From NCBI GenBank assembly GCA_019637105.1, contig JAHBWF010000029.1:1-60813 (forward strand): a stretch of DNA of 60,813 nt, given 5' to 3'. The notes beneath the pieces are model-generated. The model made no database searches, was not told the DNA's origin, and saw only the letters and a list, made by a program, of their open reading frames with translations. The position numbers and the translations under genes are program-made. This DNA is from Labilithrix sp. (GTDB taxonomy: Bacteria > Myxococcota_A > Polyangia > Polyangiales > Polyangiaceae). Below are positions 20,303 through 32,385 of the stretch, piece after piece. The stretch's first letter is position 1, and each line of letters starts with the position of its first letter.

Positions 20303-21877
20303 TCAGAACTGACCGTAGATGAACGGCTCCGCCTTGGCGCCGGCGGCGAAGTGGAGCACGTACGCGCACCCCGCGAGCACCACGCCTTGGACGACCGCCG
20401 GGCTCTGCACGAACGTGCCCCGGACGCGCTCGTAGATCGAGCGCGGGACGAAGTGCGTCACGAGCCCGAGCGCGAGGACGAGGAGGATCCGCGGCGTGAG
20501 GTTCGGCGCCCCCTCGGAGAGCTTGCCCATGCGCTCGAGCATGAGCGTGGCGTGCGCGAACGTCGGCGCGCGGAAGAAGATCCACGCGAAGCAGACGAAG
20601 TGGAACGTCGCGAGCACGGCGACCGCGCGCCCCGGCGTCATCACGACGGGCGGGCGCGTGACCTCCGCCCCGCCGGCGACCGGATCGTTCGGCTTCGCGC
20701 GGGCCGCGTCGGGCGCCGGCGCCGCGCGGTACGGCGCGCCGAGCGGCTGCATCGGGCGCCGCGCCTGACGGGCCCGCTGCCACGCGCGGTTCACCGCCAG
20801 CGCTCCGCCGTGGAGCGCGCCCCAGATGACGAAGTTCCAGGAGGCGCCGTGCCACAGGCCGCCGAGCACCATCGTGAGGAGGAGGTTCCGGTAGGTCTTC
20901 CAGGTGCCGCCGCGGTTCCCGCCGAGCGTCACGTACAGGTAGTCGCGGAGCCACGTCGAGAGCGAGATGTGCCAGCGGCGCCAGAACTCCTGGAGATCGG
21001 CCGACGTGTACGGCGCGTCGAAGTTCCGCGGCAGCTCGTAGCCGAAGAGCTTCGCGCTGCCGATCGCCACGTCGCTGTAGCCGGAGAAGTCCGCGTAGAT
21101 CTTGATCGCGTACGCGTAGACGCCGACGAGCACCTCGAGCGACGTGTAGCGCTCGGGGTTGTCGAACACGCGGTTGACGAGGTTCAGGCCGAGGTAGTCG
21201 CCGATGACGATCTTCTTCATCAGCCCGGTCGCGATCAAGAACAGCCCCTCGGCGCGCGTCGCGTCGCTCGCGACGGGCTCGGCGGCGAGCTGCGGGAGCA
21301 TCGACTTCGGCCGCACGATCGGGCCCGCGACGAGGTGCGGGAAGAACGCGACGAAGAGGAGGTAGTCGAGGTAGCGATCGGCCGGCGGGATCTCGCGGCG
21401 GTAGACGTCGATCGTGTAGCTCATCGTCTCGAACGTGAAGAACGAGATGCCGAAGGGCAGGACCAGCCGGAGGTGCGTCGGCGAGAGCTCGACGCCGAGC
21501 CACGCGGCCACCTGGGCCACGGAGTCCACGGCGAAGTTGAAGTACTTGAAGACCGAGAGGACGCCCAGGTAGTAGAAGACCGACGCGAGCAGGAGCGCTT
21601 TGCGCGTGGTGGGGTCCTCCGTGCGCCCCAGCGCGCGGCCGATCCAGAAGTCGAGCGTGCTGCCGACGAAGATGATCCCGACGCAGAGGATCGTCCAGCC
21701 GAGCGGCCCGAAGGGGACGTCTTGCTCGCGCGCGGAGTCGTAGGTCCCGACGAAGTAGAAGACGTAGCTCGCCGCCATCAAGAACAGCGGCCGCAGGAAC
21801 GACCGCCGGCGCAGCGCCCAGAACGCCACGTACGTGACGAGGAGAAAGACGCCGTAGACGGGGCTGTTGAAGAGCAT
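20303..21877 (-). CDS. MBOAT-family O-acyltransferase (AlgI/PatA-like)
   Basis: A 524-residue polytopic protein of the membrane-bound O-acyltransferase family. The hallmarks are LPFGISFFTFETMSYTIDVYR, FFPHLVAGPIVRP, EFWRRWHISLSTWLRDYLY and the catalytic-His region LWHGASWNFVIWGALHG. Such proteins carry acetyl groups from the cytoplasm to an acceptor that modifies alginate, peptidoglycan or other envelope glycans. Close by are two SGNH hydrolases (22635 and 29029) of the kind that complete acetyl transfer in Pat and Alg systems. The 195-residue membrane protein gene ends 35 nt upstream and is likely cotranscribed. Confidence 0.93.
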   Translation of the reverse strand: MLFNSPVYGVFLLVTYVAFWALRRRSFLRPLFLMAASYVFYFVGTYDSAREQDVPFGPLGWTILCVGIIFVGSTLDFWIGRALGRTEDPTTRKALLLASVFYYLGVLSVFKYFNFAVDSVAQVAAWLGVELSPTHLRLVLPFGISFFTFETMSYTIDVYRREIPPADRYLDYLLFVAFFPHLVAGPIVRPKSMLPQLAAEPVASDATRAEGLFLIATGLMKKIVIGDYLGLNLVNRVFDNPERYTSLEVLVGVYAYAIKIYADFSGYSDVAIGSAKLFGYELPRNFDAPYTSADLQEFWRRWHISLSTWLRDYLYVTLGGNRGGTWKTYRNLLLTMVLGGLWHGASWNFVIWGALHGGALAVNRAWQRARQARRPMQPLGAPYRAAPAPDAARAKPNDPVAGGAEVTRPPVVMTPGRAVAVLATFHFVCFAWIFFRAPTFAHATLMLERMGKLSEGAPNLTPRILLVLALGLVTHFVPRSIYERVRGTFVQSPAVVQGVVLAGCAYVLHFAAGAKAEPFIYGQF

Positions 21878-21912: not shown

Positions 21913-22500
21913 TCAGCGCCGGCGTCGAATGGGCAAGGAGAAGGAGACGACGACCGCGAAGGCCGCGCTCGCCGCGAGGATCGGACCGGAGAGCGCCGGC
22001 CCGGCGCCTCGACCGTACGCGCTCGAGAGCGCGAGCAGGAGCGTGGCCAAGCTGACGAAGAAGACGAGCGCCCAGAGCAGCAAGGGTCCCCACCGCCGGA
22101 GGTAGCGGGTCACGACCGCGAACGTGCCTCCGACGAGCGCGCCGACGGCCGCCGCGGTGACGTACGCGACGCCGAACGAGACGGCGAGGTCGACCCCCCG
22201 GGCCTCGGCCACGGCGAGGACGGGGCGCGCGAGCGCCGCCGGCGCGAGCGCGTGGACCGAGCCGAGCGCGGCGAGGCCGCCCGCGAAGCCGGCGATGCCG
22301 CCCGAGACCGCAGGCGACATGCGATCGTCCGGTATGACAAAAACGCCCAGCGGCTCCGGCTCCTGGTCCTCCCGTGCCTCGGTCCGCTCCGCGATCGCGC
22401 GGTCGATGTCCTCCTGCTCGACGCGCCGGTGGCGCCGTCGAACGAGGCGAATCGGGTGGTTCGTCGTCCCGAGCTCGTCGTTTTCGGAGATCCTCGCCAT
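21913..22500 (-). CDS. four-helix membrane protein upstream of MBOAT gene
   Basis: A 195-residue protein with a charged N-terminal 60 residues (RRRHRRVEQEDIDRAIAERT) and four membrane helices after it. No family is recognised. The ATG at 22500 begins a plausible cytoplasmic tail; the longer in-frame reading reaches into the divergent hydrolase promoter and is rejected. It lies 35 nt upstream of the O-acyltransferase gene on the same strand, and divergent from the SGNH gene, so it is a candidate accessory subunit of an acyl-transfer system. Confidence 0.75.
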   Translation of the reverse strand: MARISENDELGTTNHPIRLVRRRHRRVEQEDIDRAIAERTEAREDQEPEPLGVFVIPDDRMSPAVSGGIAGFAGGLAALGSVHALAPAALARPVLAVAEARGVDLAVSFGVAYVTAAAVGALVGGTFAVVTRYLRRWGPLLLWALVFFVSLATLLLALSSAYGRGAGPALSGPILAASAAFAVVVSFSLPIRRRR

Positions 22501-22634
22501 GGGTTCGTTCGGGCGGAGCGCCCGTCCTCTCGTCGGGCTCAAGCACGGTCCGAGCCACCGCTCGCGCTGGATTCCGCCCCGGCGCGACCTGCGGCGGAGT
22601 TGCTGCGGGCCGCCGCGCGTTCTATTCGTCGAAC

Positions 22635-24107
22635 GTGGCTCACCCCCTGGGCGGAAAGACGTCGATCGCCGTCGGCGTGATGCTCGTGCTCCTCGCGGTC
22701 CCGTACGCGACGCCGCGGCTCGCGCGCTACCGCGTCGCGCGCGCGCCCTGGGACAAGGCCGACGTAGCCGCCGAGGCCGCGGAGATCGCGGAGGCCGCGA
22801 AGAGCCCCGCGGCGGCGCCGACACAGGGCGAGACGTCGCTCGCCGCGTCGAAGAACGAGGCGACCGTCACCAACGCGCTCCCCGAAGGCCCGGCGCTCGC
22901 GCAGCCCTCCGCGGCGAACCTCGCGAAGACCAAGGGCTCGATCGCCGTCGACGATCCGTCGGGCCACGCGCTCGACGCCTTCTACGCGCGGCTCGACCGG
23001 ACGAAGAAGAAGGAGGCCGGCGCGGTGACGCGCATCCTCCACTACGGCGACAGCGTGCTGACGAGCGACTACGTCTCGGGGACGATGCGCCGGAAGATGC
23101 AGGCCGAGTTCGGCGACGCCGGGCACGGCTTCATCCTCGTGGCGAAGCCGTGGGACTGGTACTTCCACAACGACGTCGTCCAGGGCGCGACCGAGGGCTG
23201 GAGCTCGAGCCGCGTCACCGGCCCGTTCGTGAAGGACCTGATGTACGGGCTCGGCGGCGTCAGCTTCACGGGCTCGGCCGGCGCGCGCTCCTGGTACGGG
23301 ACCGGCACCGGACAGACCTACGGCAAGAAGGTCTCGCGCTTCGACGTCTACTACCTCGAGACGCCGAACGGCGGCGACGTCGACCTCGAGGCGCAGATCA
23401 ACGGCGAGCGGAAGACCGAGCGCTTCTCGACCAAGGGCGAGACGAAGACGTCGCGCGTGAAGTCGTTCGCCGTGCCCGACGGCGAGGCGAAGATGACGCT
23501 CAAGGTGGTGAGCGGCGCGCCGCGCCTCTTCGGCGTCGCGCTCGAGCGCGACACGCCGGGCGTCGTCTACGACTCGCTCGGCGCCAACGGCGGGCGCGGC
23601 GAGCTCCTCGGCGCGATGGACGCGGCGCACTGGAAGGAGCAGATGGACCTGCGCGACCCCGCGCTCGTCATCCTCCACTACGGCACGAACGAGAGCGAGA
23701 TGGGCGTGCTCAACAAGGAGGCGTACCAGAAGACGCTCCGCGCCCTCGTCGAGAAGGTCAAGTCGGCCGCCCCGAAGGCGTCGGTCCTCGTCGTCGCCCC
23801 GCTCGATCGCGCCGAGAAGAACGAGTCGACCGGCGCCCTCCGCACGAAGCCGATCATCAAGCACCTCGTCGAGTCGCAGAAGAAGGTCGCCGCCGAGGCC
23901 GGGGTGGGCTTCTGGAACACCTACGAGGCGATGGGCGGGGAAGGCGCGATGGCGAGCTGGGTGAAGAAGGGGCTCGCGGGGAGCGACCTCACCCACCCGT
24001 CGCCGCAGGGCGGCGAGATCCTCGGCGACCTCCTCTTCAAGGCGCTGACGAGCGGCTACGAGGCCTGGCCGGGCGCGAAGACCGGCGGCGCGGCGCCGAC
24101 CAACTGA
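22635..24107 (+). CDS. secreted/anchored SGNH (GDSL) hydrolase, paralogue 1
   Basis: A 490-residue protein with one N-terminal hydrophobic segment and an Ala-rich linker, then an SGNH domain. Block I is HYGDSVLTSDYVSGTMRRKM, the Gly block is LGANGGRGELL, the Asn block is LHYGTNESEMG, and the catalytic Asp-His block is DLTHPSPQG. About 140 residues lie between block I and the Gly block, forming a beta-rich insert (LYGLGGVSFTG, EAQINGERK). That recalls the carbohydrate-binding insert of peptidoglycan O-acetylesterases. The start is GTG at 22635. It is divergent from the 195-residue/MBOAT pair and is likely part of an envelope O-acetylation system. Confidence 0.88.
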   Translation: MAHPLGGKTSIAVGVMLVLLAVPYATPRLARYRVARAPWDKADVAAEAAEIAEAAKSPAAAPTQGETSLAASKNEATVTNALPEGPALAQPSAANLAKTKGSIAVDDPSGHALDAFYARLDRTKKKEAGAVTRILHYGDSVLTSDYVSGTMRRKMQAEFGDAGHGFILVAKPWDWYFHNDVVQGATEGWSSSRVTGPFVKDLMYGLGGVSFTGSAGARSWYGTGTGQTYGKKVSRFDVYYLETPNGGDVDLEAQINGERKTERFSTKGETKTSRVKSFAVPDGEAKMTLKVVSGAPRLFGVALERDTPGVVYDSLGANGGRGELLGAMDAAHWKEQMDLRDPALVILHYGTNESEMGVLNKEAYQKTLRALVEKVKSAAPKASVLVVAPLDRAEKNESTGALRTKPIIKHLVESQKKVAAEAGVGFWNTYEAMGGEGAMASWVKKGLAGSDLTHPSPQGGEILGDLLFKALTSGYEAWPGAKTGGAAPTN

Positions 24108-24269
24108 CGCCGCCCCGTCCCGTCTACACGCCAGGAATCACGGTGGATTGTCGGCGCCTCGCCGCGATCCGGCGGGCCGCTCCTGGAAAATCGTCCGGGG
24201 CGTGCTTTACACCCGTGCCCCGTGCCTGCGTCTACGGTCCAGAACGCTGCACCAGACCAGGGAGCTCCG

Positions 24270-25445
24270 ATGAAACGACTTACTTCCTTCCGACTGTCTC
24301 TCGCCGTCACCGCGTCGCTCGGCGCCATCTCCGCGCTCGTCGCGTGCGGCGGCATCTCCGATCCCACGCGCGGCTCGTCGACCGAGCGGGTCGCCACCGT
24401 GTCGGGCGCCCTGACGGGGGCGAGCATCCCGTCGAACACGCGCGTCGCGCTCGTGTGGAGGGTCGGCGCCACGACCGCCGTGGCCCCGGGCAACGACGTC
24501 GCGGTCGTGAACGGCAAGTTCACGATGGACCTCTCGATCCCCCCGGAGAGCTACTTCGCGTCGGCGGAGAGCGACTACGACAGCCTGAGCAGCGGCTCGG
24601 CGCCTGCGCCGACGGACGACACCGTCACGCCGGGCTCGGGCACGAGCAGCAGCGGCAGCAACGGCGGCGACGACCCCAGCAGCGGGGGCGGCGCGAGCAG
24701 CAGCGGGAGCCGCGGCGGCGGCTTCGCGTTCAACACCCAGCTCGCGCCCCGCGACACCGTCGGCGGACAGATCACGAAGCCGCTCAGCGCGGCGATCGCC
24801 GGCTTCGTCGTCTACGTCGACACGAACGGGAACGGCAAGCTCGATCTCGAGGGTCCGTACGCGAACCCGATCGACGAGGTCATCGGCGGCAACGACGAGC
24901 TCCTCCTCGCCTACCTGCGCGACGGCGGGGCGCTCGACTACGAGAAGCTCCGCGATCGCTCGGGGATCCTGCCCGCGGCGGGGTACAACCTCGCCTGGGA
25001 AGAGGGGCGGTGGCTCCCGCTCCACGTCGTCGAGCTGAAGCTCTCGACGCGCACCAAGCTCCCGGGCGCGATCTGTTCGTCGAGCGCCATCGTGTCGAGC
25101 TCCGCGGAGCCGTCGCCCGCGGCGCCCGACCCGGACGACGGCTCGAGCTCGGGAGGGAGCTCCGGCGGATATCACCCGTCGCCGGACGATCCGCGCCTCA
25201 AGTGCTCCAGCGACGGCTACAGCTACACGTACGAGCCCGACCCCGACGATTGCTGGACGCCGTCTCCCGCTCCGGTCGGTCTCTGCGCGGGAGCGTACTC
25301 GGACGAGAAGCCCGCCCCGTACGGATGCGGAGGTGGGTGGGGCGGCGCCGGGATCGACCCCGACCAGCCCGTCCCGCTCGGGTGGCCGTGCCCCGTCGGC
25401 GGCGGCGCGATCGACGGCGGCGCCGCGCCCGACGCCGGCCAGTGA
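24270..25445 (+). CDS. lipoprotein with Ser/Gly-rich linkers
   Basis: A 391-residue predicted lipoprotein with lipobox LVAC (Cys about residue 27). Residues about 42-105 form a beta-rich unit (VSGALTGASIPSNTRVALVW). A linker of Gly/Ser/Asp is followed by a second unit with YVDTNGNGKLD, an EF-hand-like Ca-loop, and later a Pro/Asp/Ser-rich C-terminus with paired cysteines. The ATG at 24270 starts the signal peptide; an upstream in-frame ATG adds a non-signal segment. It ends 16 nt before the ECF sigma gene on the same strand, so it may be the first gene of that operon. The function is unknown. Confidence 0.82.
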   Translation: MKRLTSFRLSLAVTASLGAISALVACGGISDPTRGSSTERVATVSGALTGASIPSNTRVALVWRVGATTAVAPGNDVAVVNGKFTMDLSIPPESYFASAESDYDSLSSGSAPAPTDDTVTPGSGTSSSGSNGGDDPSSGGGASSSGSRGGGFAFNTQLAPRDTVGGQITKPLSAAIAGFVVYVDTNGNGKLDLEGPYANPIDEVIGGNDELLLAYLRDGGALDYEKLRDRSGILPAAGYNLAWEEGRWLPLHVVELKLSTRTKLPGAICSSSAIVSSSAEPSPAAPDPDDGSSSGGSSGGYHPSPDDPRLKCSSDGYSYTYEPDPDDCWTPSPAPVGLCAGAYSDEKPAPYGCGGGWGGAGIDPDQPVPLGWPCPVGGGAIDGGAAPDAGQ

Positions 25446-25461
25446 CGGCCGGACCGACGAC

Positions 25462-25983
25462 GTGCTGTCGCGTGGACTCTCCGCGAGCGAGGTGAGCGAC
25501 GTGTACCACCGCTACGGAGCGCTCCTCGAGCGGCGCTGCAGGCTCCTCATGCGCGATCACGCGCTGGGAGAGGACGCGCTCCAGGAGCTCCTCGCCGCGC
25601 TGCTCCGTCGCGGTCAGCCGCTCCGCGAAGCCGCCTCTCCCTACCGCTGGCTGTGCCGCGCCGCCGATCGGACGTGCCTCGATCTCCTGCGGCGCGGCAA
25701 GCGGGTCCGGGAGGCGCTGTCGAGCGACGGGCTCGAGTCGCTCGATCCCCTCGGGCCCGCGCCCGGCGTCGACGCCGAGGCGCGGCTCGCCGCGCTCGAG
25801 TCGCTCGCGCTGCTCGACGACGAACAGCAGACCCTCGCGATCATGCTCTTCGTCGACGGGATGAGCCAGGGCGACGCCGCGGCGGAGCTCGGCGTCTCGC
25901 GGGTGACGGTCAACAAGCGGACGCAACGGATCCGCTCGCAGCTCGGCCTGTCGTCGCACGCGAGCACGGAGGCTCCGTCATGA
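25462..25983 (+). CDS. ECF-type RNA polymerase sigma factor
   Basis: A 173-residue sigma-70 family protein lacking regions 1 and 3. Region 2 is YHRYGALLERRC...HALGEDALQELLAALLRRG and region 4 is LLDDEQQTLAIML...GMSQGDAAAELGVSRVTVNKR, a good helix-turn-helix. The GTG at 25462 is preferred; a later GTG at 25501 would remove helix 1 of region 2. The stop overlaps the start of the next gene (ATGA), the usual arrangement for sigma and anti-sigma. Which promoters it recognises cannot be told from this window. Confidence 0.9.
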   Translation: MLSRGLSASEVSDVYHRYGALLERRCRLLMRDHALGEDALQELLAALLRRGQPLREAASPYRWLCRAADRTCLDLLRRGKRVREALSSDGLESLDPLGPAPGVDAEARLAALESLALLDDEQQTLAIMLFVDGMSQGDAAAELGVSRVTVNKRTQRIRSQLGLSSHASTEAPS

Positions 25984-26768
25984 CCCATCATCCGAGCAGC
26001 CTCGACCTCGAAGCGTTCGCGTGCGGCGAGACGGAGGACCTCCTCGAGCCTCACCTCGCGGAGTGCGACCGCTGCAGCGCGTTCGTGGAGCGCGTCCGCG
26101 GCGCGCTCGCGGCGGGCCCCTCGCGCGCGCGGGCCGACGACGTCGTCGCCCGCGTCGCGGCGCAGGATCGCGAGCGCGCGAGCCGCGCGGGCGAAGGCGG
26201 TCCCCGAGCCGAGCCGCAGACCCGAGCGCGCGACGCCGCGCGCCGGCGCGGGTGGATGAAGGCGAGCACCGTCGCCGTCCCGCTCGCCGCGGCCGCCGCG
26301 CTCCTCCTGCTCCTGCGCTCGCCGTCCACGAAGGACGCGCTCGCGCCGGCCGCGCCGACCGCAGAGCGGCCGAGCGCGCCCGTCGTGACCCGCGATCCCG
26401 ACCCCGAGACGACGTTCAAGGGAGGGATCCAGGTCGCGGTGATCCGCGAGCGCGCCGGCGAGCAGGCGCGCTTCACCGGCGTCGTGCGGATCCGGCCGGG
26501 CGATCGCCTGCGCGTCGAGGTTGCGCTCGACCGGGAGCAGGCCATACTCGCCGCCGTGATGGGCGACGACGCGAGCTGGGTGGAGCTCATGTCCGAGGGG
26601 GTCCGCCGGCCGGGGACGCACTTCTCGGAGCGGTCCGCGCGCGTCGACGCCTCGCCGATGCAGGGGACGGTCCTGGTCGGCTCACCGGAGGCCGTAGCGC
26701 GCGCCCGGAGCGAGCGGCGCTTCGAGGGGGTCTCCGCCGTGCGCGTCGAGTGGGAGCGGTCGCCTTGA
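25980..26768 (+). CDS. membrane zinc-finger anti-sigma factor
   Basis: A 262-residue protein. The cytoplasmic part has HLAECDRC (His25, Cys29, Cys32), the HxxxCxxC core of zinc-associated anti-sigma domains. A Lys/Arg-flanked membrane helix lies at about 96-112. The periplasmic part (120-262) is beta-rich, with VRIRPGDRLRVEVALDRE, similar in style to DUF4384-type domains that accompany caspase proteins; that resemblance is my reading. Its start overlaps the sigma stop, and its stop overlaps the TTG of the caspase gene (TTGA). It should hold the sigma factor at the membrane until a periplasmic signal arrives. Confidence 0.88.
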   Translation: MTHHPSSLDLEAFACGETEDLLEPHLAECDRCSAFVERVRGALAAGPSRARADDVVARVAAQDRERASRAGEGGPRAEPQTRARDAARRRGWMKASTVAVPLAAAAALLLLLRSPSTKDALAPAAPTAERPSAPVVTRDPDPETTFKGGIQVAVIRERAGEQARFTGVVRIRPGDRLRVEVALDREQAILAAVMGDDASWVELMSEGVRRPGTHFSERSARVDASPMQGTVLVGSPEAVARARSERRFEGVSAVRVEWERSP

Positions 26769-28351
26769 CCTCGCGGCCCCTCCGCCGGGTCGCGGCCGCG
26801 CTCGCCGCGATCGGGCTCGCCTGCGTCTCGGCCGACGCGCTCGCCGAGCCCGTGCGCATCCTCGTCTCGGCGGGGAACAAGCTCGGGCTCCCCGCGGAGC
26901 GGCCCCTCAAGTTCGCCGACAACGACGCGAAGCGCGTGCGCGACGTCATGGTGTCGCTCGGCGGCGTGCGGAGCGAGCACGCCTTCTTCCTGAACGAGCC
27001 GAACCGCGGCGCCCTCTTCGCGGCGATCGATCGGGCGAAGGCGGAGGCGCAGCGCCACCGCGCCGAGGAGGTCACCCTCGTCTTCTACTTCAGCGGCCAC
27101 GGCGATCGCGACGCGCTCCACCTCGGAGCCGATCGCGTCCTCGTCTCCGAGCTGTCCTCGAAGCTCGCCGAGGTCCCGGCCGGACTGCGCATCGCGGTGA
27201 CCGACGCCTGTCGCGCCACGCGCGAGAAGGGCTTCACGGCCGACGAGCCCTTCTCGATCTCCGCCACGATGATCCCGCAGGCGTCCGGGCAGGTGTGGCT
27301 GCACGCGTCGAGCGACGGCGAGGCGGCGCAGGAGTCCGACGAGCTCCAGGGCGCGATCTTCACCCACGCGTGGCTCAGCGGGCTCCGCGGCGCGGCCGAC
27401 ACCAACGGCGACGCGCGCGTCACGCTCGACGAGAGCTTCGCGTTCGCGCACTCGCAGACGCTGATCCGCTCGGCGAAGAGCAGCGGCGTGATGCAGAAGC
27501 CCGAGGCCGTGATGACCCTGCGGGAGGCCGCGCCGGTGGTCCTCACGCAGACGAGCGCGCGCGTGGCGAGCGTCACCCTCCCGCGCGCGCGCGACACGCA
27601 CTTCCTCGTCTACTCCGCCGGCGCGAAGAGCGTCCTCTCGGAGCTCTGGGGCTCGCCGGATCGCGCCCTCACGCTGCGCGTCCCTCCCGGTCGCTACGTC
27701 GTCCACCGCCGAGCCGGCGCGGCCGGCTCCGTCGCGCAGATCGCGATCGCCGAGGGCGAGTCGCGAAGGCTCGAGGAGCGCGACTTCACCGCGAGCTCGC
27801 TCGAGGTCGTCGCGAGGAAAGGCGACGACCCCGATCGCGCCGAGCCGGCGCCGGCCGCGCCGCGCCACGAGCTCTCCGCCGGCTACGACGCCGGCGTGAA
27901 CGCGCGCACCGGGTTCGTGCACGGCCCGCGCGCGACGTACGCGCACGCGTGGAGGTGGCTGGCGCTCACCGTCGGGGGCGGCGCGGAGCTCACCGGACGC
28001 TCGCTGGCCGACAAGGACGAGTCGCTCGTGGGCGGCTACGGGCGCGCCGGGGTCGAGCTGCGCCTGCCCGCCGGCGCGTTCACCTTCCGCGCGGGCGCCG
28101 GCGGTCGCGCCGGCCTGGTCGTCCAGACGGTCGCGCCCACGGGCGCCGCCGCGGCCTCCGGCGCGGCCTCGGAGACGAAGAGCGCGTTCGCGTTCGGGCC
28201 CGAGGTCGTGGTCGCCGGCCGCCTCGCGCTGTCGCGGGCGTGGTTCGCCGATCTGTCCGCGACCGGCGGCGTGTCCTTCCTCCGGGAAGAGGGCGCGCTC
28301 ACGGGGATCTCCGGCGCCGTCGGGGCGCTCGCGCTCGGCGCCCGGTTCTGA
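26765..28351 (+). CDS. secreted caspase-like (C14) protease fused to a beta-barrel-like domain
   Basis: A 528-residue protein. The signal peptide ends near SADALA-E (27-28). A caspase-fold domain follows (about 30-255), with the His in FYFSGHGD (His112) and the Cys in VTDACR (Cys149), the catalytic dyad of metacaspase/caspase-like peptidases. Residues about 290-340 form a short beta unit. The last ~190 residues are Gly/aromatic alternating strands ending in Phe (GARF), the pattern of a beta-barrel outer-membrane domain. Start: TTG at 26765 overlaps the anti-sigma stop and has GGGAG about 9 nt upstream; GTG at 26750 is the alternative. I infer a periplasmic or outer-membrane protease controlled by the linked sigma factor. 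Confidence 0.85.
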   Translation: MTSRPLRRVAAALAAIGLACVSADALAEPVRILVSAGNKLGLPAERPLKFADNDAKRVRDVMVSLGGVRSEHAFFLNEPNRGALFAAIDRAKAEAQRHRAEEVTLVFYFSGHGDRDALHLGADRVLVSELSSKLAEVPAGLRIAVTDACRATREKGFTADEPFSISATMIPQASGQVWLHASSDGEAAQESDELQGAIFTHAWLSGLRGAADTNGDARVTLDESFAFAHSQTLIRSAKSSGVMQKPEAVMTLREAAPVVLTQTSARVASVTLPRARDTHFLVYSAGAKSVLSELWGSPDRALTLRVPPGRYVVHRRAGAAGSVAQIAIAEGESRRLEERDFTASSLEVVARKGDDPDRAEPAPAAPRHELSAGYDAGVNARTGFVHGPRATYAHAWRWLALTVGGGAELTGRSLADKDESLVGGYGRAGVELRLPAGAFTFRAGAGGRAGLVVQTVAPTGAAAASGAASETKSAFAFGPEVVVAGRLALSRAWFADLSATGGVSFLREEGALTGISGAVGALALGARF

Positions 28352-28412: not shown

Positions 28413-28931
28413 GTGGCGCAATCGAGGCCCCCGGCGCGTTCTTCCAAGCGACCCTCCCAGACGCCGTCGGCGTCCCGCAGCACGAAGCCGGAGGCCGCGC
28501 GAGCGACGAAGGGGCCTCCGCGCCGCGCGACCCTCGAGGTCCAGCTGGCGTGGCTCGAGGACGAGGGCGCCCACGCGACGGCGCGCGCGCCCGCGGCGCC
28601 GCCGGCGCAGGCGGAGCCGGCCGAGGAGGAGCGCGCGGCGACCTCGGGGCGCGTCGAGCCTCTCGCGCCGCCGCCCTCGTCGCGCAAGCGGCCTCCGCGG
28701 CTGCCGGGCGCCGCCCGGACGCTTCCGCCGATGCCGGTCGTCTCGACCACGGAGCGCCCCCCGCCCCGTCGCCACGCGACCATGGAAGTGGAGATGAGCT
28801 GGCTCGAGCTCGTGGACGAGAAGACCGGCGCGGGGAGCGCGCGCCCGACGAAGCGACCGCGCGCCCCCAGCACGCGCCCGCCCGCCGGCGCGAGCGCGAG
28901 GTCGCGGCGGCCCCCTTCGACCGAGGAGTGA
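28413..28931 (+). CDS. small disordered protein with duplicated WLE motif
   Basis: A 172-residue, Arg/Pro/Ala-rich protein, almost wholly disordered. Two short segments stand out as conserved-looking: RRATLEVQLAWLE at 37-49 and RRHATMEVEMSWLE at 119-132. They share the pattern (R)AT(L/M)EV(Q/E)(L/M)xWLE, amid a low-complexity background. No signal peptide or membrane helix is seen. The start is GTG at 28413, and the gene follows the caspase gene by 61 nt. The motifs look like docking or phosphorylation peptides, but no family is known to me. Confidence 0.6.
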   Translation: MAQSRPPARSSKRPSQTPSASRSTKPEAARATKGPPRRATLEVQLAWLEDEGAHATARAPAAPPAQAEPAEEERAATSGRVEPLAPPPSSRKRPPRLPGAARTLPPMPVVSTTERPPPRRHATMEVEMSWLELVDEKTGAGSARPTKRPRAPSTRPPAGASARSRRPPSTEE

Positions 28932-29028: not shown

Positions 29029-30447
29029 TCACGGCTCGTCGAGGCCGTCCGCCGGCGGGAGCGGCAGGTCGCGCGACACGCCGCCGGGCGGCGGCGAATC
29101 CGCCGGTGGCGGCACGCGCGAGGGCGGCAAGCCGGCGTCGCGCCGCCAGCCCGCGTAGGCGCGCATCAGATCGGCCGCGAACGAGCCGCCGAGCTGCGCG
29201 TAGCCTTCCCGTGTAAGATGCACGCGATCCTTCTGCGCGCGCGGCGGGGCCTCGGCGGCCCAGGCGGCGATCGAGCCTTCGCCGCCCATCGCCGCGAGCT
29301 GATCGTAGAACGCGCAGCCCGCGGCCTCCGCCACGCGCCGCTGCGCGGCGATGATCTCGGAGATCTTCGCGGCGGTCACCCAGCCGTCCTTCGTCTCGAT
29401 CGCGCGATCCGGCGGCCCGAGCATGAGGCACGACGCGCTCGGCACCGCGCGCGCGACGCGACCGAGCGCGTCGACGAGCTGTCGCTCGTAGACGTGCTGC
29501 GCCATGTCGACGTCGGTCGACTCGTTCGTGCCGTAGGCGAACACCACGAGCGAGGGCGCGCGGTGCTTGAGCTGCTCGGCCCAGTGCTGCTCGTTCCACG
29601 AGAGCGCCGTCGTGATCCGCGCCCCGTTGATGCCGAGCGCGTCGAGCACGATCCCGTGCTGCAGGCGCTCGAGCGACATGCCGAAGACGCGGACGTCGCC
29701 GTCGCCCACGGCGCGGACCTCGACCTGGTGGATCGAGCTCTCGGCGACGTCGAAGGCGCGGAACGCGGACGACGACCGCTCGCCGCGGGTCGAGACCCGC
29801 ACGACGCGGACGCCGTCGACGAAGACGTCGAACGCTCCGCCGCTCGGCTGCTCGAGGTACGCGAGCTCCGCGCGGGAGGTCTTGGCGGTCAAGTCCGCCC
29901 ACGCGCGCGCGCCGCGCTGGCGCGTGAAGAGGCCGATGCCGGAGAGCCCGTACAGGCCGTCCCCGACGAGCCTGCCGCGCTCGAGCTTCCCCTTCTCGGG
30001 CGCCCATTCCGTCGACATCCCGACGCGCACGCCGTCCTGGAGCCAGCGCTTCCACGGCCGCCCGATCGCGACGAACCCGCGCCCGCCGTCGCCGAAGCGG
30101 GTCTGGAGCGCGCGCCGAACCGCGGCGGTCTGGATGTCCGCGGCGGTGTGGGAGTCGCCGAACTGCGTGATGCGCACGTCGTCCTGCGCCTGCCCCGACT
30201 CGAGGCGCGCGAGGGACTCGAAGAAGCGACGGAGGGCGGCGGGCCGCTCGAGCGCGCCGACGACCGACTGGCCCCGCGGCGAGACGACGTCGACCGGCTC
30301 GGTGGCGATGGGGCGGTCGCCCCCCGCGCCCGCGCCCGCCTTGCCGCCGAGGCCGTCGAGCGGCGACGTCTTCGGCTTGGCGACGGCCTCGCCGCACGCG
30401 AGCGCAGGCAACAGGGCGAGGATCGGGAGGAGACGGCGCACCAGCAC
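29029..30447 (-). CDS. SGNH (GDSL) hydrolase, paralogue 2
   Basis: A 472-residue exported protein related to the hydrolase at 22635. It has a hydrophobic leader ending PALACGEAVA, and then FGDSHTAADIQTAAVRRALQ (block I), LGINGARITTAL (Gly block), VFAYGTNESTD (Asn block) and DRVHLTREGYAQLGG (catalytic Asp/His). The inserted beta-rich region between blocks I and II is shared with paralogue 1. The C-terminal tail is Pro-rich. GTG starts are possible at 30459, 30447 and 30441; 30447 has GGGAC upstream. The divergent gene pair at 30655 codes for membrane proteins. It is likely an envelope glycan esterase or acetyltransferase. Confidence 0.87.
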   Translation of the reverse strand: MLVRRLLPILALLPALACGEAVAKPKTSPLDGLGGKAGAGAGGDRPIATEPVDVVSPRGQSVVGALERPAALRRFFESLARLESGQAQDDVRITQFGDSHTAADIQTAAVRRALQTRFGDGGRGFVAIGRPWKRWLQDGVRVGMSTEWAPEKGKLERGRLVGDGLYGLSGIGLFTRQRGARAWADLTAKTSRAELAYLEQPSGGAFDVFVDGVRVVRVSTRGERSSSAFRAFDVAESSIHQVEVRAVGDGDVRVFGMSLERLQHGIVLDALGINGARITTALSWNEQHWAEQLKHRAPSLVVFAYGTNESTDVDMAQHVYERQLVDALGRVARAVPSASCLMLGPPDRAIETKDGWVTAAKISEIIAAQRRVAEAAGCAFYDQLAAMGGEGSIAAWAAEAPPRAQKDRVHLTREGYAQLGGSFAADLMRAYAGWRRDAGLPPSRVPPPADSPPPGGVSRDLPLPPADGLDEP

Positions 30448-30654
30448 CAAGTGTCCCACATCGATGCGCGGAGACAAAAAGTTTGTCCCGCCGCGACGTG
30501 CGTACGCGCGCCTCCGCGGCAGGCGGCGCCCGCGTCCGGGGCGACGAGGCCGCGCGCGTCGGGCGACGAGCTCGACCGCTCCTCGGCGCGGGCCGACGAG
30601 CCCGCGCCACCGCAGAACGGTGCGCGCGGGCGAAAGATTGTCTAGCGTGGGCTC
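30448..30654. promoter_or_regulatory. divergent intergenic region with small palindrome
   Basis: This 207-bp gap separates paralogue 2 (leftward) from the HTTM pair (rightward). GACAAA-AAG-TTTGTC at 30473-30487 is an exact 6-bp inverted repeat in an AT-rich spot. It lies 26 bp before the GTG chosen for the leftward hydrolase and could be an operator. No other feature is seen. Confidence 0.3.
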
Positions 30655-31284
30655 GTGGAGGGAGACGAGGAGCCGCGGGAGAGCGACCGTCGCGCGCCCG
30701 GCGCCGAGGAGGCGCCGCCCGACGGCGCGGGCGCGACGACGCGGACCTCGGGGCTCCCGTCGCTCCCGGCGGCGGGGACCGGGAAGAACCACCGGATCCT
30801 CTTCGCGCTCCTCTGGCTCGCCGTCCAGGCGACGCTGATCGTCACCGCGGGGCGGCGGAGCGACGGCGCGTTCGGGTTCCGTATGTTCAACGAGTCGTCC
30901 ACGATCAAGCTCGCCCTCTACCGCGAGCTCGAGCGCGATCCCGGCGGCCCCCGCGCGCGGGTGCCCGTCGAGGGCGGCGTCTGGATCGCGCGCGCGAGCG
31001 ACGGAACGAACCACCGGATGTCCTGGTACGACCGCGTCCCGACGCCGTTCTGGGCCTTCGATCAGGAGATGCCCGCGTCCTACGGAGCGGCGGCGCAGCT
31101 CGAGCGCCTCCAGCGGGCGCTCGACGACCTCGCGACGCACGTCTCCGCGGCGGACGACCTCGAGACGCGTCGCTTCGTGCTCGACGTGACGGTCCGGCGG
31201 AACGGCCGCGAGCCGGTCGTCCACCAGCTCACGAGCCGCGAGCGCGAGGCGTGGACGCCGCGCCGCGCCGACGGAGCGCCGTAG
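30655..31284 (+). CDS. single-pass membrane protein, partner of HTTM protein
   Basis: A 209-residue protein with an acidic, disordered N-terminus (about 45 residues), one membrane helix (about 48-65) and a periplasmic domain of about 140 residues with FRMFNESSTIKLALYRELER and DGVWIARASDGTNHRM-like segments. The start is GTG at 30655. The next gene begins directly after the stop codon (31285), which implies coupling. Small proteins of this type often precede HTTM genes in bacteria, so a shared complex is likely, but the family is not known to me. Confidence 0.78.
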   Translation: MEGDEEPRESDRRAPGAEEAPPDGAGATTRTSGLPSLPAAGTGKNHRILFALLWLAVQATLIVTAGRRSDGAFGFRMFNESSTIKLALYRELERDPGGPRARVPVEGGVWIARASDGTNHRMSWYDRVPTPFWAFDQEMPASYGAAAQLERLQRALDDLATHVSAADDLETRRFVLDVTVRRNGREPVVHQLTSREREAWTPRRADGAP

Positions 31285-32385
31285 ATGCTCGCCGCGCTCG
31301 CGCGCTTTCGAGACGAGCTCGAAGACGGGTACGTGCTCGGCCCCGTGCGCGCGGCCGTCGGCGCGCTGCTCGGCTGGCACGCGCTCGTGGCCGCGGAGGA
31401 GCTCGCCAAGATCGGGTACTTCGGCGACACCTTCCACGTCGCGATGATCCCCGAGGCGCTCGTCCCCGCGCCGCGCGTCTACGCGGTCGTGCTCGCGGCG
31501 CGCGTCTGCCTCGCGGTGATGGTCGCGATCGGCGTCTGGGCGCGGCCGGCGCTCGCGGTGAGCGCGGCGCTCGGGCTCTGGCTCCTGCTCTGCGATCGCA
31601 ACCAGTTCCACCACAACCGCTACTCGCTCTACGCCTACGCGCTGCTCCTCTCGCTCACGCCGTGCGATCGGTCGTGGCGGGCGACCGAGCCGGCCGTGCC
31701 CGCGCCGCGGCTCGGCCCGTGGTGGGGCGTCCGCCTCGCGCAGCTCCAGGTGTCGCTCGTCTACCTCGCGTCCGGCGGCTCGAAGCTGCTCGACCCCGAC
31801 TGGCGCGACGGGCTGGTCCTCGGCGATCGGATCGCCCGCTACGCGCACGTCGCGATCGCGAAGGGGGTGCCGCCGGCCGTCGTCGATCTCCTCGCGCGGC
31901 CCGACTTCGCGAGCGCGACGGCGAAGCTCGCCATCATGACCGAGCTCGTCCTGTGCATCGCGCTCTGGCTCCGTCCCACGCGCGTCGTCGCGCTCTGGTG
32001 GGGCGTCTGGTTCCACGTCGTCATCCAGGCGACGTCGAAGGTCGAGACGTTCAGCGTCCTCGCGCTCTCGCTCTACGGCGTGTTCGTCACGCCGGACTAC
32101 CGCGCCCGGAGGCTCCGCTTCGATCCGTCACGCTTCTGGGGCAAGCTCGCCGGGGTCGTCGTCCCGGCCCTCGACTGGTTCGCCCGCTTCCAGGTGGAGC
32201 CGTGGGAGCCGGACGATCAGCGCGGCCACTCGGTCGTGCTCGTCCGGCGCGACGGCGAGCGCGCGACCGGCGTGCGCGCCGTCGCGATGATCGCGCGCTG
32301 CGTCCCGCTGCTCTTCCCGCTCTGGGCCCCGATCGCGCTCCTGGCGAGCTTCACGCGACGCGGCGACCTGACGACGCGGGGCTAA
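31285..32385 (+). CDS. HTTM-domain membrane protein (VKGC-like)
   Basis: A 366-residue polytopic protein. The YLASGGSKLLDPDWRDG motif and the NQFHHNRYSLYAYALLLSL segment are hallmarks of HTTM (horizontally transferred transmembrane) domains, the membrane part of vitamin-K-dependent gamma-carboxylase. Bacterial members are mostly of unknown function. The histidine pair in FHHN lies at a site expected to matter. It starts at ATG immediately after the preceding small gene and has no gene on its strand directly downstream. Confidence 0.88.
   Translation: MLAALARFRDELEDGYVLGPVRAAVGALLGWHALVAAEELAKIGYFGDTFHVAMIPEALVPAPRVYAVVLAARVCLAVMVAIGVWARPALAVSAALGLWLLLCDRNQFHHNRYSLYAYALLLSLTPCDRSWRATEPAVPAPRLGPWWGVRLAQLQVSLVYLASGGSKLLDPDWRDGLVLGDRIARYAHVAIAKGVPPAVVDLLARPDFASATAKLAIMTELVLCIALWLRPTRVVALWWGVWFHVVIQATSKVETFSVLALSLYGVFVTPDYRARRLRFDPSRFWGKLAGVVVPALDWFARFQVEPWEPDDQRGHSVVLVRRDGERATGVRAVAMIARCVPLLFPLWAPIALLASFTRRGDLTTRG

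Follow-up and report, generated by a model that had tools for sequence, protein, structure and literature searches.

Organization of the operon

The window analyzed here, a whole stretch of 60,813 nucleotides from Labilithrix sp., contains an operon of four genes that encode a lipoprotein, an ECF sigma factor, an anti-sigma factor, and an exported caspase. The positions of these genes and of three shorter features within or upstream of them are collected in Table 1.

Table 1 Genes and sequence features of the caspase operon (positions in the window).
Feature	Position	Strand	Remarks
Promoter-like site GTGCTTTACA-N15-TGCGTC, putative autoregulatory ECF promoter	24202..24232	+	Alignment of upstream regions; genome pattern searches
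Lipoprotein gene, first in operon	24270..25445	+	Lipobox ...LVAC, Cys26 (by eye and script)
ECF sigma factor (regions 2 and 4)	25462..25983	+	GTG start; Pfam PF04542 4.9e-08, PF08281 1.3e-07
Anti-sigma	25980..26768	+	ATG start; zinc motif, one membrane helix, β-domain (alignment, model)
Exported caspase (Peptidase_C14)	26765..28351	+	TTG start; Pfam, AlphaFold2, Foldseek
Caspase residues 148–157: catalytic Cys and R-x-K-G loop, putative self-processing site	27206..27235	+	
Caspase residues 212–223 (DTNGDARVTLDE): EF-hand-type loop between two helices	27398..27433	+	

The sigma and anti-sigma genes overlap by the sequence ATGA and the anti-sigma and caspase genes by TTGA; the lipoprotein gene is separated from the sigma gene by 16 nt. 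The original prediction was confined to the last three genes (25462..28351), and its coordinates, reading frames, and 4-nt overlaps agree with ours. So does its assignment of the ECF sigma factor, in which both Sigma70_r2 and Sigma70_r4_2 exceed the Pfam cut-off. That three-gene layout is real and kept in relatives, but the account missed the lipoprotein gene and promoter-like site, which sit just upstream, as well as a Lys-Gly (K-G) motif shared by the anti-sigma and the caspase. The locus is thus a real and conserved arrangement, and it is richer than first described, since it comprises a fourth gene, its own promoter-like site, and a candidate cleavage site.

Among 14 close loci in which the genes were placed (the window counted), the 4-nt overlap recurs between sigma and anti-sigma genes in 12 and between anti-sigma and caspase genes in 11. 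For these counts, a script chose the start codon nearest the homologous start; those of distant members were picked by eye. Because the overlaps recur and 86 of 101 loci have a sigma gene in the vicinity of the caspase gene, the layout is more than a product of chance. The operon is very likely a signaling module.

GDSL-type hydrolases (PF13472) flank the operon at 22374–24107 (+) and in an ORF at 29029–32016 (−), whose domain spans ~29197–29652. An MBOAT acyltransferase is encoded at 20303–21877 (−), and together these genes perhaps mark a neighborhood for polysaccharide O-acylation. After the caspase gene lies a small ORF (28413–28931, +) that contains two copies of a motif like ATLEVQLAWLE/ATMEVEMSWLE and yields no Pfam or NCBIfam match at E <= 1. 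An HTTM-domain protein (PF05090, 2.8e-14) is encoded further downstream at 31285–32385 (+).

Predicted structure of the exported caspase

The caspase matches Peptidase_C14 (PF00656) at 8.5e-12, over the Pfam cut-off, and weakly matches C25. CHAT is not matched by Pfam at E <= 1 and appears in one of 31 relatives. No other C14 protein is matched in the source genome at E <= 0.001; the closest named record belongs to a Labilithrix sp. assembly, with 91% identity over the best caspase segment. An N-terminus that resembles a signal peptide by eye is followed by a caspase domain (residues ~28–263), a β-sandwich (~268–335), and an eight-stranded barrel (367–527). The barrel strands in the AlphaFold2 model comprise residues 367–379, 383–395, 399–413, 417–436, 439–458, 470–488, 493–508, and 511–527. 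Foldseek matches the protein to OmpA, Ail, OmpX, and NspA on one side and to caspases and MALT1 on the other.

Eight long C-terminal strands and a terminal aromatic residue (Phe in the window) identify the barrel as OmpA-like. Phe is the last residue in 51 of 95 complete family ORFs, and OMP_b-brl is matched in just 3 of the 31 relatives, the window not among them. Since the barrel is even-stranded and OmpA-like, the N-terminal caspase domain is predicted to face the periplasm.

The catalytic residues His112 (SGHGD) and Cys149 (DAC) are invariant in 100 of 100 aligned family ORFs (L071 is left out of these conservation counts). Three acidic residues are predicted to line the S1 pocket: Asp54 (98 of 100, Glu in two), Asp147 (100 of 100), and Glu186 (97 of 100). 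They were paired by sequence position alone with the S1 acids of MALT1, which are Asp365, Asp462, and Glu500 (PMC4357240). The caspase fold and PF00656 match, the His-Cys dyad, and the acidic S1 residues place the protein in family C14. Because the S1 residues are acidic and conserved, comparison with MALT1 and metacaspases (PMC4357240) predicts a pocket that accepts Arg or Lys at P1, with cleavage after these residues.

The EF-hand-type loop is flanked in the model by helices 198–210 and 221–240, and its residues Asp212, Asp216, and Glu223 are present in 98, 91, and 100 of the 100 ORFs, respectively. A requirement for calcium is described as widespread, but not universal, among metacaspases (PMC4357240), and is plausible here, where the lipoprotein family, too, has a YxDxNGNGxLD stretch.

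The original prediction had proposed an intact His-Cys dyad, a barrel-like C-terminus, and a location outside the cytosol. The first two are borne out by the alignment, the model, and the Foldseek matches, and the third is supported by the signal-peptide-like N-terminus and the predicted outer-membrane barrel. The three findings on which that prediction hung all came out in its favor: the C-terminus is predicted to be a barrel, the dyad lies in a caspase fold, and the triad of genes is present in relatives. Its interpretation is nonetheless supported in part only: a surface caspase sits less well with a protease domain that would face the periplasm, and predation or envelope stress as the trigger is still a conjecture.

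Anti-sigma factor and lipoprotein

The anti-sigma carries the zinc motif HxxxCxxC (H25, C29, C32) and one membrane helix (residues 80–113 in the model), in keeping with its earlier description as a membrane zinc anti-sigma. Its linker contains K147-G148, and the periplasmic β-domain starts at ~147. The sigma factor, with regions 2 and 4, and the adjacent HxxxCxxC anti-sigma with a single membrane helix thus constitute a Class I ECF sigma/anti-sigma pair. A wider set of 44 anti-sigmas (window counted) was aligned from 45 sigma–anti-sigma–caspase loci, leaving out L105 and L122, in which the wrong gene or no gene was picked. The zinc motif is present in 14 of 14 close anti-sigmas and in 24 of the wider 44.

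It had been suggested that the periplasmic domain resembles those associated with caspases. DUF4384 is matched in 13 of the 44 anti-sigmas, and the term occurs in three papers on caspase homologs, which lends the suggestion some support; the window's anti-sigma, counted among the 44, has no Pfam match at E <= 1.

The lipoprotein contains the stretch DTNGNGKLDL, and the family consensus from an alignment of 34 members has the stretch YxDxNGNGxLD. A single-sequence profile found 14 ORFs, the window's own among them. An iterated profile, built on the same loci that were later counted, placed relatives in 46 of 101 loci; 44 of these share the strand of the caspase, and two lie on the opposite strand. 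A lipobox with a placed start is present in 41 of the 44. In 13 of 14 close loci, the relative precedes the sigma gene; in many of the remaining loci, it follows the caspase gene. Throughout the phylum, the window type of lipoprotein was found in 43 of 282 genomes. All 34 genomes with a best lipoprotein match of E <= 1e-12 have the caspase, and the eight caspase-less genomes hold weak matches; this co-occurrence is not an independent test because the profile was trained beside caspases.

Two further arrangements were observed. One locus (L200, genome G045) has the lipoprotein, sigma, and anti-sigma genes and no caspase within an 11 kb stretch. Six loci (L046, L056, L059, L061, L062, L064) have the order caspase, a Cys-rich and mostly lipoprotein-like gene, sigma, anti-sigma. 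The intervening gene differs from the window lipoprotein; its lipobox is clear by eye in four of the six and doubtful in L062, and its start was not placed in L064.

Conservation across Myxococcota

A search of relatives matched the caspase at E <= 1e-5 in 22 of 59 genomes (own counted). At E <= 1e-20, it was matched in 103 of 282 Myxococcota genomes, or about a third. Gene neighborhoods were analyzed in two sets. The first consists of 41 loci: the window and 40 stretches (L032–L071) behind 50 caspase matches, after the window's own match and eight weak or short ones were left out and one pair was merged. A sigma gene of the same family lies near the caspase in 34 of these at E <= 1e-18, and three more matches are weak. 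The second set is a non-random sample of 60 stretches (L102–L161), hand-picked at one per genome from mostly strong matches. It comprises 45 loci with sigma upstream on the same strand, six with caspase first, one divergent, and eight in which no sigma gene was found. A contig end falls within 752 bases upstream in six of these eight; the other two (L113 and L129) have a caspase and room on both sides, and no sigma gene was found within ~4 kb.

Both sets together give the 86 of 101 loci cited above, so that the neighborhood check proposed with the original prediction finds the triad kept across Myxococcota. Of the loci counted, 15 had served to train the sigma profile and 14 the anti-sigma profile. 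The loci were picked by caspase, which makes these linkage counts one-sided. Loci L066, L067, and L068 encode a more distant caspase type with DACNS and with ARKPGG replacing R-x-K-G; their upstream sigma matches are weak. In L129, a lipoprotein gene lies downstream of the caspase, and an upstream ORF on the opposite strand resembles a TonB-dependent receptor by eye.

A Lys-Gly motif shared by caspase and anti-sigma

The catalytic cysteine of the caspase is followed by a loop (A-C149-R-A-T-R153-E-K155-G156-F) that opens a low-confidence stretch of the model (residues 152–170). Arg153, Lys155, and Gly156 are found in 85, 94, and 100 of 100 family ORFs, and a full R-x-K/R-G within 16 residues of the catalytic Cys in 80 of 100. 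A related motif lies in the anti-sigma linker, which is otherwise variable in length and sequence. Position 147 is basic in 43 of 44 anti-sigmas (Lys in 39, Arg in 4), Gly148 is present in 42, and Lys147-Gly148 is invariant in the 14 close members. Arg145 occurs in 38 of the 44. The window is an exception, and its pair shares K-G only: P3 is Arg153 in the caspase versus Thr145 in the anti-sigma. The shared motif and the acidic, conserved S1 residues therefore lead us to propose that this caspase recognizes both the loop and the linker.

For comparison, we collected 21 anti-sigma-like matches from 17 genomes that lack this caspase at E <= 1e-20 (a twenty-second locus, L237, gave no match and was left out). 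R-x-K/R-G within 50 residues past the membrane helix is present in 35 of 44 caspase-linked anti-sigmas versus 0 of 21 controls. The corresponding figures past the helix are 37 of 44 versus 5 of 21 for bare K-G and 42 of 44 versus 8 of 21 for K/R-G. On these sequence counts, the wider control cuts both ways: the longer motif is absent from it and bare K-G is not. Three of the five K-G controls (L224–L226) have the same linker letters, and for the majority of the 21 the similarity is confined to the zinc finger and helix. The only strong control matches (L219, L220, and L221) all lack the motif, and none is a clean sigma-linked anti-sigma. Some other C14 protein is encoded in 12 of the 17 control genomes. 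R-x-K/R-G occurs in 0 of 34 lipoproteins of these operons and, outside the loop, 128 times in 64,760 residues of caspase ORFs read stop to stop. The Arg-x-basic pattern showed no significant covariation over 57 caspase/anti-sigma pairs (41, 11, 3, 2; Fisher p 0.32). The K-G motif could also be structural or serve another protease.

Seven anti-sigma loci have no caspase gene in the fetched stretch, and six of them keep the K-G pair; such caspases are encoded elsewhere in the genomes of these six. This observation would suit a scheme in which the anti-sigma is itself the sensor, by way of its DUF4384-like domain, and a housekeeping pathway of the DegS/RseP type cuts it, with the caspase and lipoprotein as envelope-stress response genes. 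Standard regulated intramembrane proteolysis of this kind needs no operon-encoded protease. We nevertheless consider the scheme improbable: the caspase accompanies sigma and anti-sigma genes in most loci, a one-sided count in loci picked by caspase, and in 11 of 14 close loci its translation is coupled to that of the anti-sigma.

A promoter-like site upstream of the operon

The promoter-like site is kept in seven of seven aligned upstream regions, window counted, one of them with variants; the upstream region of L036 has two mismatches to the search pattern. Within the window, the site is the sole match at up to three mismatches, with 0.12 expected. When up to one mismatch was allowed, seven of eight genomes (own counted) contained exactly one site, in all seven before the lipoprotein gene. 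The site upstream of the operon in genome G006 has two mismatches. The reversed pattern used as a control gave one match in total at up to one mismatch; at two mismatches, the added matches do not exceed this control except in genome G021. From its sequence and location, the site is a putative autoregulatory ECF promoter. Since it occurs once per genome, before the operon, the main target of the sigma factor would be its own operon if this is indeed its promoter. The caspase would then be both a part and a product of the circuit.

Such a circuit recalls Fec-type systems (FecI-FecR-FecA), in which an ECF sigma factor, a single-pass inner-membrane anti-sigma with a periplasmic β-domain, and an outer-membrane barrel are encoded in one cluster. 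The window has the same kinds of parts, likewise in one cluster. The barrel and lipoprotein might detect something at the outer membrane and relay the signal by physically contacting the anti-sigma, leaving the caspase as output only, with another substrate. A sigma factor that seems to drive mainly its own operon, with the caspase among few products if the promoter is real, fits this arrangement, as do caspase and anti-sigma motifs that do not covary. However, Pfam matches no TonB-dependent receptor among the operon proteins, in which respect the operon departs from the Fec type, and no FecR at E <= 0.01 among the 44 anti-sigmas. Contact signaling also leaves the strongly kept basic-Gly pair of the linker unexplained, and we regard it as rather unlikely.

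Positive feedback would equally fit the all-or-none outcome of a device for programmed death or developmental lysis, in which a self-amplifying switch makes a caspase that digests its own cell envelope. An autolytic role has been suggested for metacaspases of M. xanthus, with the operon pointed to (PMC3501461). An outer-membrane anchor and a periplasmic protease domain would be unusual for an enzyme that carries out cell death in the cytosol, and Pfam recognizes no lytic gene in the operon. As the principal explanation, lysis appears very unlikely, yet it is compatible with, rather than exclusive of, cleavage of the anti-sigma by the caspase.

Proposed mechanism

It is tempting to speculate that the operon is a self-activating envelope-signaling system of four genes in which the caspase cuts its own anti-sigma; we give this reading a little less than an even chance. 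At rest, the zinc anti-sigma would hold the ECF sigma factor at the inner membrane. The caspase would be exported and anchored by its barrel in the outer membrane with the protease domain in the periplasm, where the lipoprotein probably assists it as a sensor or regulator. An envelope signal would activate the caspase, perhaps through Ca2+ at the EF-hand-type loop and a self-cut after Lys155. Acting as a site-1 protease, the active enzyme would cleave the anti-sigma linker behind Lys147, close to the outer face of the inner membrane; site-2 and cytosolic proteases would then release the sigma factor. The freed sigma factor would transcribe mainly its own operon, such that the switch amplifies itself and yields more envelope caspase, which is at the same time its output.

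This reading is supported by the kept triad, the S1 acids, the linker and loop motifs and their contrast with the controls, the single promoter-like site per genome, and the precedent of Csx29 (discussed below). It is weakened by Thr145 in the window, the lack of covariation, the imperfect controls, K-G kept without a nearby caspase, the 128 motif copies elsewhere, the zinc motif in 24 of 44 anti-sigmas, and loci L113 and L129. Of the single mechanisms, we favor the caspase as site-1 protease, although its odds fall somewhat short of even. In its fullest form, this reading makes the caspase, tethered to the outer membrane, a site-1 protease dedicated to its own anti-sigma; K-G would mark both the self-processing loop and the linker, and activation would be read out across Myxococcota as transcription of a self-amplifying caspase operon. 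We hold this version tentatively, with more doubt than confidence.

The role of bacterial caspases outside phage defense is a long-standing question. Myxobacteria, which are predatory and lyse during development, lend themselves well to its study. If the proposal is true, a caspase opens a transcription switch across the envelope, and just four genes supply its substrate, a possible site of cleavage, and a promoter that could serve as a reporter. A few point mutations would then suffice to test what activates a bacterial caspase and what it cuts. Should the cleavage step prove wrong, the module still assigns these caspases a defined location, partner proteins, and a mode of regulation in roughly one third of the Myxococcota genomes sampled.

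Relation to known systems

Compared with Fec-type clusters, the window replaces the TonB-dependent receptor with an eight-stranded barrel and caspase, adds a lipoprotein, and has, in relatives, a DUF4384-like rather than a FecR domain. The proposed cascade resembles RseA/DegS/RseP of the sigma-E system, in which a periplasmic protease cuts the anti-sigma and an intramembrane protease follows; here, the proposed site-1 protease is an operon-encoded cysteine caspase instead of a PDZ serine protease. Metacaspases and orthocaspases (C14B) share with the window caspase the His-Cys dyad and acidic S1 residues, and a preference for Arg or Lys and a need for calcium are to be expected. The window caspase differs in its outer-membrane barrel, EF-hand-type loop, and R-x-K-G loop after the catalytic Cys, features that in our judgment are unusual among C14 proteins.

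Proteases have been linked to ECF sigma factors before. Carboxypeptidase, subtilase, and CHAT proteins are described beside ECF54 (PMC8999054). In a published model, caspase-like Csx29 cuts Csx30 and relieves inhibition of an ECF sigma factor (PMC10028731). The likeness of this Csx29–Csx30–CASP-sigma system to our proposal is a caspase-clan protease that cuts an ECF sigma inhibitor. Csx29 is an RNA-triggered CHAT protease of a CRISPR system, whereas the window caspase is exported, predicted to be membrane-anchored, and a member of family C14.

The original prediction held that no system of this exact layout had been characterized. In the accessible literature and its open text, as distinct from subscription papers and supplements that may catalog the layout, we found no description of an exported barrel caspase with its own anti-sigma. 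Sigma-linked myxobacterial metacaspases, however, were reported in 2012: in M. xanthus, four of the five metacaspase genes share an operon with a sigma-70 factor, and similar operons occur in Anaeromyxobacter, Haliangium, Sorangium, Ralstonia, and Fibrobacter (PMC3501461). In the accessible part of that report, these operons are not credited with an anti-sigma, a barrel, a lipoprotein, a promoter, or a cleavage motif. As in the window, a metacaspase is found in a predicted operon with a sigma-70 factor, a likeness of layout alone. The operon is less unprecedented than was originally held, since sigma-linked metacaspases are known in myxobacteria.
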